43,811 nt of DNA, taken from contig SXSI01000033.1 in NCBI GenBank assembly GCA_005792285.1, positions 1 to 43,811 of the forward strand. The letters are read 5' to 3'. The stretch comes from Bacteroidota bacterium. GTDB taxonomy: Bacteria > Bacteroidota > Ignavibacteria > UBA10030 > UBA8401. The position numbers were made by a program, and so were the translations under genes. Below are positions 23,805-43,811 of the stretch, one piece after another. Within the stretch, counting starts at the first letter, position 1; each line of letters begins with the position of its first letter. A model generated the notes under the pieces. That model searched no databases and had not been told where the DNA came from. It saw only the letters and a list, made by a program, of their open reading frames with translations.

Positions 23805-24263
23805 ATGATTTTTTTACTTTTGACTGCAATTATTTTACATATACTTTCCTACATTTCGTGGGTTGGAGGAATGCTTTTTTTAAGTGGTGTTTATAAACCA
23901 ATCTCAATTTATTTCGGCGATGAAAATGAAAAATCGTCCATTCCTGTTTTGCAAAGGTTTTTAGGATTTACTTGGATGTCAGTTTGGACACTTATAGTTA
24001 CAGGAATTATTTTATTTCTTTTAGGAATGAAAATAAATTGGTGGCAAAATATTACAGATTGGGAATTACTGATTTTAACTCATTCAATATTTATATTAGC
24101 AATGATTTTAACTTCAATGAAAGCTGGAAAAATTTTAAAACAAAATGACGACAGCAAAAATATTATTATGAGATTTAATAAATTAAATACACTAAATGTA
24201 ATTTTTAGTTTTGCAGATATTTTTACAATCAGCGGAATGGTTTTGATAAAATGGGTACGATAA
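23805..24263 (+). CDS. Four-helix membrane protein, CopD/DUF-like
   Basis: The 152-residue protein has four hydrophobic helices at about residues 2-25, 53-74, 86-105 and 128-148. The first contains [20 protein letters not shown], an H-x7-WxGG pattern found in CopD-like and related haem/copper-associated membrane families. A Lys/Asn-rich loop precedes the last helix. The 3' end overlaps parA by 13 nt. The assignment to a CopD-like family is a motif resemblance only; a metal or haem role is unproven. Confidence 0.65.
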
Positions 24264-25060
24264 TAGCAATAGTAAATCAAAAAGGGGGAGTTGGTAAAAC
24301 AACAACTGCCGTGAATATTGCAGCTTCGATTGCTGCAGCAGAAAAGAAAATATTACTTATTGATATCGATCCGCAGGCAAATGCAACAAGTGGAGTTGGT
24401 TATGAAAGCGACGCTCAAACAAACACTTCGTATCAAGTTTTAATTGGAACTGTACTTGCGAAAAATGCAGTTTATGAAACCAAAATGCCTTATCTTTCAA
24501 TTATTCCTTCTGATATAAATTTAGTTGGCGCTGAAATCGAAATAATTAATGAACCTGAACGTGAATATAAATTGTCGAAAGCGTTGATGGCAATTAAAGA
24601 TGATTATGATTTTATAATTCTTGATTGCGCTCCTTCGTTGGGATTGATTACTCTAAACGCGTTATCTGTAGCCGATTCGGTAATAATTCCAGTTCAATGT
24701 GAATATTATGCATTGGAAGGATTAGGGCAACTTTTTAATACAATTTCTATGGTGAAGAAAAATTTGAATAAATCTTTAGAAATTGAAGGAGTTGTAATGA
24801 CAATGTATGATTCACGATTAAGATTGTCGCAACAAATTGTTGACGAAGTAAAAAAATATTTCGGGAAAAAAGTTTTCAAGACGATTATTCCGCGAAATGT
24901 TCGTTTAAGTGAAGCACCAAGTTTTGGTAAACCAATTTTACTTTATGATGCTGTTTCATCTGGATCAAAAAATTATATGCAATTAGGAAACGAAGTTATT
25001 CATCGTGTTGCACGAAGATTAAGACAACAACAATTAAATACACAAGTTGCAGTAGGATAA
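24251..25060 (+). CDS. parA: Chromosome partitioning ATPase ParA/Soj
   Basis: The 269-residue deviant-Walker ATPase moves or segregates chromosomal origin regions with ParB. The N-terminus is [20 protein letters not shown], with signature Lys11 and the P-loop Lys, followed by [16 protein letters not shown] (Walker A') and [20 protein letters not shown] (Walker B). It lacks the N-terminal HTH of plasmid ParA proteins, as is usual for the chromosomal Soj type. It overlaps the preceding membrane-protein gene by 13 nt; parB follows after 3 nt. Confidence 0.96.
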
Positions 25061-25063
25061 AAA

Positions 25064-25975
25064 ATGGCAGAACAAAAACATAGAAATGTTTTAGGTAGAG
25101 GTTTGGGAGCGTTACTTCCTAAACTTCATGGCACAGATCCAATTTCTGGAATTCCACAAGGAAAAGATTCTACAGGATTAAATTCTATTTCTTTAATTGA
25201 TATTGTAAAAATAAAACCAAATCCATTTCAGCCACGGATTGATTTCGAACCGAAAGCATTGGATGAGCTTCGTGAGTCAATTAAAAAACATGGAGTAATT
25301 CAACCTATTACTGTTTGTCGTGTTGGAGAAGGTTTTGAATTAATTTCCGGCGAAAGAAGATTACGTGCATCCTCAGAGGCGGGATTAAAAAAAATTCCAA
25401 CTTACATAATTAGTGTAAATTCTAAAGTTGATATTCTTGGATTAGCATTAATAGAAAATTTACAACGCGAAGATTTAAATCCGATTGAAACTGCAGTTTC
25501 ATATAAACGATTAATTGAGGAATGTAATTTAACTCAGGAACAATTGGGAGATGTTTTAAGCAAAGAAAGAAGTACAATTACAAATTTTCTACGATTATTA
25601 AAACTTCCCGATAATATTATGCAAGCTGTTAGAAATGGCTCACTTACTATGGGACATGCAAGAGCACTTTTATCATTTACAAATCCAAAACAGCAACAAC
25701 TTATTTTCAAAAAAATTATTGATCAAGGATTGCCGGTTCGTTCAGTTGAATTAATTGCAAAAAGTGAATTAAAAAGAGCGTCAAAAGAAAATAAAAAAAT
25801 GACAGCTGCTTCATCACATCATTCCGTGCAAAGTGTTGAAAGTAAATTAAGAGAAAAGTTGGGAACAAAAGTTTTAATAAAACAAAAAACAAATACATCT
25901 GGAGATATCTTAATTGAATATTATTCTCTCGATGATTTAGAACGAATTATAGAATTAATTCAACAAGGAATATGA
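25064..25975 (+). CDS. parB: Chromosome partitioning protein ParB/Spo0J
   Basis: The 303-residue ParB binds parS, spreads as a CTP-dependent clamp and works with ParA. The N-terminus has the Arg-rich ParA-stimulating stretch [16 protein letters not shown]. The CTP-binding boxes are visible as KPNPFQPR and [12 protein letters not shown] (GERR), then [15 protein letters not shown]. The HTH follows as [20 protein letters not shown] with [12 protein letters not shown]. The C-terminal dimerisation region ends [18 protein letters not shown]-like. I found no perfect parS palindrome in the window. It overlaps ridA by 4 nt. Confidence 0.96.
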
Positions 25976-26355
25976 AAACAATTATCAACACTCCAAATGC
26001 GCCAGCTCCAATTGGTCCATATAATCAAGGTGTAGTTACAAATGGTAAATTACTTTTTACGGCCGGACAAATCGCTCTTGATCCAAAAAGTGGAGAAATT
26101 ATTGGAACAAATATTGAAGAGCAAACGAAACAAGTTTGTGAAAATCTTTCAAATATTCTTTTAGCTGCCGGAACATCTGCAGCAAATGTTGTGAAGACAA
26201 CTGTTTTTCTAAAAAACTTTAACGACTTCGCTTCAATGAATAAAATTTATGGTGAATATTTTGGCAACTCAGCTCCAGCTCGAAGCACAGTTGAAGTTGT
26301 CCGTTTACCAAAAGATGTTTTGGTTGAAATAGAATTAATTGCAGAAATTCCATAA
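25972..26355 (+). CDS. ridA: RidA-family enamine/imine deaminase, cytosolic
   Basis: The 127-residue protein begins [17 protein letters not shown] and has [17 protein letters not shown] and [20 protein letters not shown]. The Arg in ARS and the Glu in EIEL match E. coli RidA R105 and E120, which are needed to hydrolyse reactive enamine/imine intermediates such as 2-aminoacrylate released by PLP enzymes. There is no signal peptide. It overlaps parB by 4 nt (ATGA). A second, exported RidA is encoded at 32444-32881. Confidence 0.95.
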
Positions 26356-26370
26356 TCGTAAAAAATAATT

Positions 26371-26874
26371 TTGAATTTATTTCGAATTTTAACTTTAATA
26401 ATTTTACTTGTAACTTCAACATTAAGCCAAGTAAAAGTTGAAAATAAATTATTTCCACAAAGCCAAGTCCAATCAGATTCAATTATTTATGGATTAAAAT
26501 CTCCATCGCTCGCAATGATTTCATCTGCCCTCGTTCCTGGAATGGGGCAAATTTATAATGAATCATGGTGGAAGGTCCCGGTAATTTGGGGTTTCGCTTA
26601 TTACTTCGGAAAAGTTGTAACAGCTCAAGATAAAGAATACCAAATCTGGAAAAATAAATATGATGAAAGTGGTCAAAAAAATTCTTTGTTTCGATATTAT
26701 CGGGATTTTTATCACGATCAGCGAGATCAGTTTGCGTGGTATCTTGCAGTAACTTATGCGCTAAATATTATCGATGCTTATGTTGATGCTTCACTTTACC
26801 ATTTTGAAGTTACTCCGCAATTGATTAATAATGTTCCATCGATCAATGCAACTTTAAAAATAAAACTCAGATAA
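26371..26874 (+). CDS. DUF5683-like membrane protein
   Basis: The 167-residue protein starts at TTG with a signal-like hydrophobic segment (LFRILTLIILLVTSTLS). The core SLAMISSALVPGMGQIYNES has the P-G-x-G-Q-[IV]-Y signature of DUF5683, followed by WWKVPVIWGFAYYFGKVV and a later hydrophobic segment (FAWYLAVTYALNIIDAYVDA). Function is unknown; the family is typical of Bacteroidota and relatives. A related PGWGQIYG segment ends the pseudo-caspase protein at 40647-42683. It lies between ridA and metF. Confidence 0.75.
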   Translation: MNLFRILTLIILLVTSTLSQVKVENKLFPQSQVQSDSIIYGLKSPSLAMISSALVPGMGQIYNESWWKVPVIWGFAYYFGKVVTAQDKEYQIWKNKYDESGQKNSLFRYYRDFYHDQRDQFAWYLAVTYALNIIDAYVDASLYHFEVTPQLINNVPSINATLKIKLR

Positions 26875-40646: not shown

Positions 40647-42683
40647 ATGAAATTCTTAGTTGACATCTTAAGGAGAAGGCATTTAAGTTTTCTCCTATTA
40701 ATAATATTTCACTCTGGTTTGTTTGCCCAGCTGAATGTCGTTCCAACTTATTTTTTAAACGATCCTGTTACAAATACACAATTAGTTGCATTTGAAAATA
40801 GCCGTGCATTATTAATTGGAATTGATAATTACAAGCAAGTTGAGCCACGACTCTCCTCCGTAAAATCTGTAAATACATTTGCTGCATTCTTAAATAAAAA
40901 TCATGGTTTTCCTTTAAATAATATTTCTGTTTTAACAAACGAAAATGCAACAAAGCAAAAAATTATTTCTGCATTAAATAAATTAAGCCAAACTGGAAGT
41001 GCAGATCGAATTATAATTTATTTTGCAGGAAGAGGATTAACATTTGCCGGCTCTCGTGGAGTTGAAGATGGATTTTTAATTACAAACGATGCTGTTGTTC
41101 GGGATTATACAACTGCTAATCAAACTTCAATCTCATTAACTTCCTTGAAAACTATTTTAAATGAATTTAAATCGAAACATGTTTTAATTTTACTCGATTG
41201 CAGTATTGGACCAATTCCTGTTTTGAAAAGATATACAACCGCCGCTCCTGTAAAAACACAAACAAGTAAAAATCTTCAAGGAAGAGTTCATCATTTAATT
41301 GCAGCTGGTGACAGATCTGATATTATTAAAGATAAAATTGCTACTGAGACAAGTCCTTTCTTGCAAGCATTTCTTTCCTCATTTGAAGTTGCATACACAG
41401 ATAAAAATGCGGATGGCTCGATAAGTGGTTCTGAAATTGCAAGTGCAATGTCAATTCGCGGAGTTATTTCTGTAAGTGGAAGAGTTATTCCTCATTCGGG
41501 CTATATACTAGATGGCGGTGGAGATTTTTCTTTTATTCTTCCAAATCTTCAAAGACAAATGAGAATTAACTTTGACATTAATCCAGTTGATGCATCGGTT
41601 TCAATTGAAGGGAAAAAAATTCCAAATATAAATGTACCAACCGTAATTGTTAATTCACACGGATTTAGAAAATATAATATTTCCAGACAAGGATATACTA
41701 CGCTAACTGGTGAAATATTTGTTGATGGTCAAACTGATTTAACATTAAAAGTAGAGTTAATAAAAATTCCAACACGAGATTTACTGGTGGAGATTAATCA
41801 ACCTGATGCACGGATTTTTGTTAATGGAATTTTTAAAGCAAAAGTTGAAAAGAAATATTTGATGGAAGATGTCAAACCAGGATTATATACAATTCGCACA
41901 GATTTGGAAGGTTACTTATCCGATTCAATTCAATTTGATGTAAACGAAGTCAAACTTTACAAACATACATTGAAATTAAAAAGTAAAAATGGCTGGCTTT
42001 CTGTACATTCAAATAAAGGAGTTAGAATTGATCTTGATGGAATTTTTGTTGCTTCAAAGGATTTGAAATTAAAAGAAGTAACAATGGGTGGGCATAAAAT
42101 TCGTTTATATGGATTGGGCTTTCCTGAAACAATAAAAGAAGTTTTTGTTGATATGAGTGATACTGTTGAAATAACTGCAATGCTTGAACGACCAACTGCA
42201 GGTGGAGCAACTTGGCGTTCGATGATTGTTCCGGGATGGGGACAAATTTATGGTCTTCGTCCAACAACCGGATATGTTATTATGGGAAGTACCGTTGGAA
42301 GTATTGGTGCATCAATTTGGGCTTATTCACAATACAATAGTTCAAATACAAGTTATAACGATTACATTTCAAAGTACGATCTGGAAGTCAAAAAAGATAT
42401 CAGTATTAGAGATACTTCACTTCTTTCAATTTACAGATCATCGCGGGACAGTTCATATAAAATTGCAAAGACAAATTTTAACGTGAGCCTAGTCACAGCT
42501 GGTCTCATGGTCGCTTGCTATTTGTATAATTTATCCGATATCTTTATCAACGACCCCGAAACATTATATGTGCGAGAAGAAATGAGAGCATTGAATTTAC
42601 TTGATAAGAAAAAAACAAACGCTGAATTAAAACTCCGTCCAAAGTATGATGGCGTTGAAATTGCTTTAAGTATTGACTTCTAA
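40647..42683 (+). CDS. Exported pseudo-caspase with EF-hand loop, PEGA-like repeats and DUF5683-like tail
   Basis: The 678-residue protein has a signal peptide (residues about 1-28). A caspase-like (C14) domain follows: ALLIGIDNYKQVEPRLSSVK, RIIIYFAGRGLTF and VLILLDCSIGP. The catalytic His position is Arg129, and the catalytic Cys position of DxC(H/F)SG is Ser186 (Cys185 is one place early), so protease activity is unlikely. DKNADGSISGSE (252-263) is a complete EF-hand calcium loop at the usual place for bacterial caspases. Three PEGA-like beta modules follow (about 305-375, 378-448, 450-515), then SMIVPGWGQIYGLRPTTGYV and two hydrophobic helices, matching DUF5683. It may be a surface-anchored scaffold or calcium-responsive binder. 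Confidence 0.75.
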   Translation: MKFLVDILRRRHLSFLLLIIFHSGLFAQLNVVPTYFLNDPVTNTQLVAFENSRALLIGIDNYKQVEPRLSSVKSVNTFAAFLNKNHGFPLNNISVLTNENATKQKIISALNKLSQTGSADRIIIYFAGRGLTFAGSRGVEDGFLITNDAVVRDYTTANQTSISLTSLKTILNEFKSKHVLILLDCSIGPIPVLKRYTTAAPVKTQTSKNLQGRVHHLIAAGDRSDIIKDKIATETSPFLQAFLSSFEVAYTDKNADGSISGSEIASAMSIRGVISVSGRVIPHSGYILDGGGDFSFILPNLQRQMRINFDINPVDASVSIEGKKIPNINVPTVIVNSHGFRKYNISRQGYTTLTGEIFVDGQTDLTLKVELIKIPTRDLLVEINQPDARIFVNGIFKAKVEKKYLMEDVKPGLYTIRTDLEGYLSDSIQFDVNEVKLYKHTLKLKSKNGWLSVHSNKGVRIDLDGIFVASKDLKLKEVTMGGHKIRLYGLGFPETIKEVFVDMSDTVEITAMLERPTAGGATWRSMIVPGWGQIYGLRPTTGYVIMGSTVGSIGASIWAYSQYNSSNTSYNDYISKYDLEVKKDISIRDTSLLSIYRSSRDSSYKIAKTNFNVSLVTAGLMVACYLYNLSDIFINDPETLYVREEMRALNLLDKKKTNAELKLRPKYDGVEIALSIDF

Positions 42684-42686
42684 AAA

Positions 42687-43496
42687 ATGAAAAACGAAGT
42701 TAAATTATTTTTATTCCTTTTAATCTTAACCGTATTAAGTTGCAAGCCGCCAACGGAACCTGTTGATGATCCAAATGATCCGACTACAGGAACAAAACCA
42801 TCTGTCGAAATAGTTGAAGGTCCTTTAGATTTAATTCCAATTCGATCAACTAAATTTACATGGCGTGGAAATGTTACTGCATCTAAATTTTCTTATCGTT
42901 TACGAACAGATGATCCAACTACAAATACATGGTCAAGCTGGAGTATCGATTCAACAATTACTTTTGAATCACTTGATGACGATAAATTTAATTTTGAAGT
43001 TAAAGCACAATCAACAGTCGGTACTGAATCTGAAATAACAAAGAAAACATTTTCCGTTGATATACTTTCAACTCCTGCAATTGCAATTTTTCCTGAACTT
43101 TCAAAAGTTACAAAAGATTCCATTTTTAATTTATACTTCCATGCAAAAGATGTTCGTGCGTTACTTGCACTACATACAGTTATAAAATACGATCCAAGTA
43201 AGCTCACAATATATTCTGTTGATACTGTAAATTATTTTGTCAAAAAAAATAATGCATCTTTTTTTGCAATTATAGATTCTATTTCAACAGGAAGAATTTT
43301 AGTTGATATGGGAGTTGCAATGGGTGCACCAAAGGGATTAACGGGAACAGGAAGAATATTAAAATTACGTTGTAAAAAATTAGTTGATGAGTTAATTACC
43401 GTTGAAATTCTCGGCAACGAAACTGCAGCTCGAGATACTTCTAATACACCGATAACTTTAAAATCTTTTTCTAATGCAAGGATAATGGGACAATGA
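42687..43496 (+). CDS. Lipoprotein with cohesin-like domain
   Basis: The 269-residue protein has a signal peptide ending in a lipobox (ILTVLSCKPP), then a Pro/Asp-rich linker. Residues about 40-120 form an Ig-like region (FTWRGNVTASKFSYRLR, FNFEVKAQSTVG). Residues about 130-269 resemble a cohesin domain (FNLYFHAKDVRALLALHTVI, YDPSKLTIYSVDT and GRILVDMGVAMGAP, GRILKLRCKK). Cohesins bind dockerin modules; no dockerin is seen here. It follows the pseudo-caspase gene after 3 nt, and its TGA overlaps the ATG of the IPT/TIG gene. It is probably outer-membrane anchored with surface exposure. Confidence 0.8.
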   Translation: MKNEVKLFLFLLILTVLSCKPPTEPVDDPNDPTTGTKPSVEIVEGPLDLIPIRSTKFTWRGNVTASKFSYRLRTDDPTTNTWSSWSIDSTITFESLDDDKFNFEVKAQSTVGTESEITKKTFSVDILSTPAIAIFPELSKVTKDSIFNLYFHAKDVRALLALHTVIKYDPSKLTIYSVDTVNYFVKKNNASFFAIIDSISTGRILVDMGVAMGAPKGLTGTGRILKLRCKKLVDELITVEILGNETAARDTSNTPITLKSFSNARIMGQ

Positions 43497-43811
43497 AAAA
43501 GATTATAAATATTTTAATTTCAAATTTTATTTTTGCTTCAATTCTTTTTGCACAACCAACAATAACAAGTTTTACACCAACAAGTGGAGCTGTAGGTACA
43601 GCAGTTACAATTACAGGAACAAACTTTAGCGCTACTACATCAAGTAATATAGTTTGGTTTGGTGGTGTTAAAGCTACCGTAAGCTCCGCCACTTCAACAC
43701 AACTTATTGTAACAGTCCCTGTTGGAGCAACAAATTCACCAATTCGCATTCTTGTTAATTCATTAATTTCAGAATCATCAATCCCTTTTAAGGTAACTTT
43801 TTTAAATGGTG
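43493..43811 (+). CDS. Secreted IPT/TIG-domain protein, 3'-truncated by the window edge
   Basis: The frame is open to the last base. The 106 visible residues begin with a Sec signal (MKKIINILISNFIFASILFA) and one IPT/TIG Ig-like domain: PTITSFTPTSGAVGTAVTI, TGTNFSATTSSNIVWFGG, VKATVSSATSTQLIVTVP and a final strand (PIRILVNSLISESSIPF). In this group such proteins often continue into repeats, propellers or sorting domains; here the remainder is outside the window. The ATG overlaps the cohesin-like lipoprotein stop (ATGA), so it is translationally coupled and may be its partner or another surface component. Confidence 0.85.
   Translation, partial: MKKIINILISNFIFASILFAQPTITSFTPTSGAVGTAVTITGTNFSATTSSNIVWFGGVKATVSSATSTQLIVTVPVGATNSPIRILVNSLISESSIPFKVTFLNG

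Follow-up and report, generated by a model that had tools for sequence, protein, structure and literature searches.

A gene near the end of the window (the whole stretch of 43,811 nucleotides analysed here) encodes a protein whose caspase domain has lost both catalytic residues and which, as judged by comparative sequence analysis, is a fixed pseudo-caspase under purifying selection and not a decaying gene. The protein is very probably not a protease. Its most likely role, to which we would give about an even chance, is to bind without cleaving, as a subunit stabilised by calcium in an envelope system that serves a giant secreted protein; the lack of activity and the identity of the partners are what we infer from the comparisons, and the part played in assembly is put forward as a hypothesis. 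Bacterial caspase homologues are mostly without known substrates or partners, and here a gene order that recurs in distant lineages points to a lipoprotein with a cohesin fold and a giant secreted protein as candidate partners. The locus suggests that a protease has taken on a structural or binding function within a bacterial surface-protein system. Its features are as follows.

40647..42683, + strand: pseudo-caspase-PEGA-DUF5683 gene, an open reading frame of 678 aa (Pfam and AlphaFold2 model)
40647..40730, + strand: predicted signal peptide, residues 1-28, hydrophobic over 11-28 and ending ...GLFAQ (sequence, hydropathy)
40797..41546, + strand: caspase (C14) fold, about residues 51-300 (Pfam; metacaspase and MALT1 fold match)
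40866..40868, + strand: Ser74, at the position of an S1-pocket Asp, TbMCA2 Asp95 (alignment; PMC6426788, PMC4357240)
41031..41033, + strand: Arg129 in place of the catalytic His (profile alignment)
41199..41204, + strand: Cys185 and Ser186, Ser186 being at the catalytic Cys position (profile alignment)
41400..41435, + strand: EF-hand-type Ca2+ loop DKNADGSISGSE, residues 252-263, with the pattern D-x-[DN]-x-D-G-x-I-x3-E
41547..42191, + strand: three PEGA repeats, about residues 301-515 (Pfam; all-beta in the model)
42192..42566, + strand: DUF5683 membrane tail, about residues 516-640 (Pfam; long helices 539-581 and 590-634 in the model)
42687..43496, + strand: cohesin-fold lipoprotein gene, 269 aa, with an invariant lipobox Cys19, starting 3 nt after the pseudo-caspase gene (fold model)
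43493..43810, + strand: start of a TIG-domain exported protein, overlapping the lipoprotein gene by 4 nt and running off the contig end

The caspase fold, the three PEGA repeats, the DUF5683 tail and the export of the protein had all been read from the sequence in the original prediction, and all were confirmed, with Pfam scores in the 678-aa frame of 41.4 bits for Peptidase_C14 (cut-off 21.4), 40.3 bits for PEGA in three stretches (cut-off 20.8) and 30.6 bits for DUF5683 (cut-off 26.7). Gln28, at the end of the signal peptide, is invariant in 13 homologues. The AlphaFold2 model had a mean pLDDT of 75.7, with most of the caspase core at 75-93 and the Ca2+ loop, flanked by predicted helices 237-244 and 261-271, below 50. 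It matched the bacterial protein GSU0716 as well as MALT1 and the metacaspases of plants and yeast; a direct phmmer search of the PDB gave only a weak calmodulin match, at the Ca2+ loop. With the metacaspases and paracaspases (Yca1, AtMCA4/9, TbMCA2, MALT1) the protein has in common the fold, the core strands and alignable His and Cys positions, and it differs from them in having no dyad. The calcium site of metacaspases is Asp-lined, and the EF-hand-type loop found here, late in the fold, differs from it in kind. The gene is the sole C14 gene in the window's genome (G000), no relatives of it were found among viral contigs, and an Rfam scan of the window gave no match. Identity as a defence gene was rejected, the PADLOC match being to a generic caspase model only (51.3 bits) and the neighbours not being defence genes.

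Alignment to solved metacaspases with a profile built from ten homologues placed Arg129 at the catalytic His of AtMCA4 and Yca1, and Ser186 (Thr in the sister genera) at the catalytic Cys of AtMCA4, in agreement with the earlier assignment of both positions and of Cys185 one place early. Throughout the clade of seven pseudo-caspases described below the His position is Arg, and the Cys position is Ser in two and Thr in five. Cys185 as a displaced nucleophile, which in a competent dyad would have overturned the original prediction, was rejected, as the residue is Phe in all five sister-genus homologues (five of the seven in the clade). The substrate pocket is altered as well: Ser74 takes the place, in the alignment, of the 'VND' motif Asp, its position being Ser in 7/7 pseudo-caspases and Asp in 6/6 intact homologues, and the corresponding Asp95 of TbMCA2 is described as an S1-pocket residue (PMC6426788, PMC4357240). 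The other S1-pocket Asp, Asp184 (TbMCA2 Asp211), is invariant, and Arg129 may pair with it and so close the S1 pocket.

By homology the protein thus belongs to C14, with Arg129 and Ser186 where an active peptidase would have its His-Cys dyad, and it has the marks of a pseudo-orthocaspase, namely a dyad replaced in the p20 domain and purifying selection within a clade. Pseudo-orthocaspases, mainly YS, are known, having made up 16% of prokaryotic p20 sequences in an early survey, as cited in PMC6426788; in the available text of PMC6426788 and PMC3501461 the dyads named are YS, YA, FS, YN, YG, QC and HA, and 10 of 1078 Bacteroidetes sequences in the orthocaspase survey were pseudo-variants. As in those of Cyanobacteria and Alphaproteobacteria, some of which have export signals, a C14 (p20) domain with a replaced dyad occurs in a clade tied to one architecture (PMC6426788, PMC3501461). 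The differences lie in the dyad, Arg-Ser or Arg-Thr, which is absent from those named there and is apparently a new type for pseudo-orthocaspases; in the S1 pocket, where the cyanobacterial variants keep both acidic residues (PMC6426788), whereas here Asp184 is kept and the second is Ser74; and in the attached domains, which, as named there, are TPR, trypsin-like and DUF4843 and here are PEGA and DUF5683.

Homologue searches covered the order and the class, and the full caspase-PEGA-DUF5683 order was found in 13 proteins. The dyad is replaced in seven, all of one family (G000, which is the window's, G001, G002, G004, G010, G012:C22 and G015), and intact in six (G006, G012:C169, G070, G131, G161 and G178), so that genome G012 carries both kinds; G006, too, is of the family to which the window's genome belongs. 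Because six relatives of the same architecture retain the dyad, the architecture does not define the pseudo-enzyme, and the original prediction that it marks a non-protease, which was to fall if such relatives were found, was refuted. The pseudo-caspases, seven in number, group in one clade with support of 100/100 in a tree built from 52 caspase domains, by which the loss of the dyad is shown to have a single origin there, and the intact six fall in three separate places. A single clade of all 13 was rejected (p-AU 1.7e-34, a value for which the program cautions on long branches). With the intact proteins coming from three places in the tree, the caspase domain and the PEGA-DUF5683 tail seem to have been joined, or exchanged, several times. 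Two other C14-PEGA-like relatives in the order, L026 (G029) and L014 (G024), have degenerate dyads, His-Asn and Ala-Cys, representing a separate loss in another family.

Comparison with the same-genus homologue, 71% identical, gave dN/dS values of 0.21 for the caspase part, 0.20 overall, 0.25 for the loop region, 0.09-0.10 for PEGA2-3 and 0.17 for DUF5683, all of them rough because they come from a simple Nei-Gojobori count with dS near 1. In comparisons across genera the caspase part matches PEGA2 in conservation and exceeds PEGA1, PEGA3 and DUF5683. Within it, conservation is highest in the windows at the former Cys loop, the Ca2+ loop, the domain end and the first core strand, with the former His loop next. 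The domain is full length in seven species of three genera, and 23 residues, Ser74 among them, are invariant in the pseudo seven and absent from the intact six. Recent decay of the caspase gene was rejected on the lack of stops, the dN/dS of 0.21 and the conservation across three genera. It is the combination of a shared dyad loss, a single clade, a retained Ca2+ loop and purifying selection that identifies a fixed pseudo-caspase. A segment after the old Cys site, residues 189-202 (41211-41252 of the window), is nearly fixed in the pseudo clade, with Pro191, Val192 and Pro201 invariant, and the intact homologues lack it; a new binding surface may have formed there.

The Ca2+ loop had been described as an intact EF-hand, and its pattern, which arises in 0.025% of shuffles of the caspase domain, is indeed perfect; it does not form a separate domain, however, and sits in the C-terminal part of the caspase fold. 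Of the 52 C14 domains 23 carry the strict pattern, namely all seven of the pseudo clade, 14 whose dyad is intact and 2 further ones that are degenerate. Being common in dyad-intact relatives, the loop is no sign of lost catalysis; judged by this distribution, it is an old property of these C14 domains that outlived catalysis, and it presumably binds calcium. The earlier view of the protein as a calcium-dependent binding or assembly module and not a protease therefore survives in part: the protein is very probably no protease, and the loop and the former active site are the most conserved regions, as that view would lead one to expect, but neither the architecture nor the loop marks such a function, both being shared with dyad-intact relatives.

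Cohesin and TIG neighbours, a survey of which had also been proposed at the outset, are indeed there and are meaningful: a lipoprotein with a cohesin fold directly adjoins the gene and is followed by the TIG-domain reading frame. The lipoprotein model (pLDDT 85.8) gave TM-scores of about 0.7-0.8 (up to 0.81) to many solved cohesins; its Pfam cohesin score is 15 bits, below the cut-off of 24.1, and that of the G015 orthologue, at 36.3, passes. The fold is common to cellulosomal and non-cellulosomal cohesins (e.g., Archaeoglobus 2xdh). Here, in contrast to both, the cohesin belongs to a small lipoprotein whose N-terminal domain is Ig/Y_Y_Y-like, and no Dockerin_1 match was found in the window's genome. 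In the order the family has nine loci in 98 genomes, each directly adjoining a PEGA-DUF5683 gene, and in the class sample 34 loci in 391 genomes, with 15 adjoining a C14 gene (3 pseudo, 12 intact). Since ten of the 34 were search seeds picked beside PEGA-DUF5683 genes, the fair count of C14 neighbours is 8 among the 24 others; a rough binomial estimate for 15/34, assuming 0.0033 per locus, comes to 1e-28, a figure that includes the ten seeds. The idea that the cohesin binds the Ca2+ loop as it would a dockerin was rejected: the lipoprotein is kept beside relatives lacking the loop (G006, G012 copy b, G070) or the caspase altogether (G094, G000:C7, G001:C46), the loop is kept in four homologues without the lipoprotein, and the genome has no dockerin. 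Lipoprotein genes next to such loop-less or caspase-less partners make it improbable that the cohesin has the loop as its ligand.

The TIG-domain reading frame, whose C-terminal part lies beyond the contig end, occupies the position of a giant substrate of the type IX secretion system (T9SS) in other cassettes. Giant proteins encoded directly downstream at G000:C7 (2293 aa), G001:C46 (2606 aa), G015 (3902 aa) and G094 (3968 aa) each end in a type A sorting domain (T9SS-CTD), in common with T9SS substrates; a giant frame of about 4200 aa follows at G070, and in other lineages the lipoprotein adjoins a T9SS-CTD frame in nine further loci (NYPNPF motif). In the window's genome SprA, two C25 peptidases and 34 T9SS tails scoring above the cut-off were identified, from which the system is taken to be present. 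Together these loci make a tight recurring cassette of caspase-PEGA(-DUF5683), cohesin-fold lipoprotein and giant T9SS substrate well supported as a genomic unit. In a literature search that covered mainly open-access papers, nothing was found on DUF5683 in bacteria, on bacterial PEGA with a caspase, or on a C14 or cohesin-lipoprotein partner for T9SS substrates. A second, caspase-less cassette in the same genome (G000:C7:11219-19917; L041:8220-16918) consists of a PEGA-DUF5683 protein (316 aa), a cohesin-type lipoprotein (284 aa) and the 2293-aa T9SS protein, which has Big_9/cadherin-like domains. At G070 a second intact C14 gene (L166:13403-14746, - strand) lies directly upstream of the cassette's caspase-PEGA-DUF5683 gene.

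Four pseudo-caspases (G002, G004, G010 and G012:C22) have no adjoining lipoprotein. On one side of those in G004 and G012:C22 are LptD, ROK and FtsB genes, named by sequence inspection (in the window LptD, ROK and DivIC were confirmed by Pfam), and on the other side or near all four are STAS, ExbB, ExbD or TonB-like genes, also by inspection. The sister-genome pseudo-caspases at L033, L034, L036, L037 and L170 lie beside or near STAS-domain, ExbB/MotA-like, ExbD-like and TonB-like genes, named in the same way. In G015 the pseudo-caspase gene is followed by those of the lipoprotein and the giant protein and, after these, by the STAS-ExbB genes, so the simplest reading of the gene order is that the sister species of G015 lost the two partner genes. 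That four pseudo-caspases are kept without the lipoprotein means that the protein can have a role without that partner, and this counts against the role favoured here.

That role may be pictured as follows. The exported, membrane-anchored pseudo-orthocaspase is the product of the first gene of a three-gene cassette, and in related lineages the first gene encodes a dyad-intact C14 protein, probably a protease cutting a cassette protein at basic residues. In the lineage of the window one ancestor lost the His, the Cys and an S1-pocket Asp. The domain would then have been retained as a surface which, stabilised by calcium and no longer cleaving, secures a partner near the envelope or positions it there, with PEGA and DUF5683 giving reach and membrane anchoring. 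More ambitious, and more tentative, is the proposal of an undescribed system for surface-protein maturation or anchoring (C14 caspase-PEGA, cohesin-fold lipoprotein and giant T9SS exoprotein) into which caspases would have been recruited several times in different lineages; in the window's lineage the protease would have become a fixed subunit, bound to calcium and without catalytic activity, its active site plugged. It is unlikely that the caspase domain is instead a functionless relic, with selection acting on PEGA-DUF5683 and the domain on its way to loss as in the caspase-less paralogue: the existence of a caspase-less PEGA-DUF5683 and cohesin-lipoprotein cassette in the same genus (G000:C7, G001:C46), the grouping of its lipoproteins with those of the pseudo cassettes (99/98) and the lower dN/dS of PEGA2 and PEGA3 would fit such a course, but the domain's persistence at full length across the three genera, its cross-genus conservation at or above that of the PEGA and DUF5683 parts, and the retention of the Ca2+ loop and of a rebuilt active-site surface would not.

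It would be most surprising if the protein were still an enzyme, with either Ser/Thr186, paired with Arg129, or a displaced Cys185 as its nucleophile. A hydroxyl residue at the Cys position and Arg at the His position are indeed constant in 7/7, yet Arg is a poor general base, Cys185 is replaced in most of the clade, one S1 Asp is lost, and we know of no Ser/Thr-Arg peptidase with a caspase fold. By analogy with what has been proposed for cyanobacterial pseudo-orthocaspases, the domain might capture substrates, holding basic peptides in the old S1 pocket, and the conservation of the old active-site loops and of Asp184 is in keeping with this; we consider it quite unlikely, the pocket having become less acidic through the Ser at the second S1 Asp and the Arg at the His position, whereas the cyanobacterial variants keep both Asp residues (PMC6426788). 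Quite unlikely too, finally, is a pseudo-enzyme that regulates an active protease as decoy or partner of C14 or C25 (PorU-type) T9SS peptidases, a reading for which T9SS use of a C25 sortase of the same clan as caspases (PMC4560394, PMC4357240), the two C25 genes of the genome and the coexistence of pseudo and intact forms in G012 can be cited, but which meets with no other C14 gene in the window's genome and no link of the locus to the C25 genes, located on other contigs. The recurring gene order, with its candidate partners and the natural active and inactive pair in G012, makes a surface-protein role of bacterial caspases directly testable.

Elsewhere in the window, at 24251-26874, a run of four genes comprises parA, parB, one of RidA type and a small DUF5683 gene. 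Of the 98 genomes of the order 97 have DUF5683, so its short form looks like a core gene, located here near parAB.
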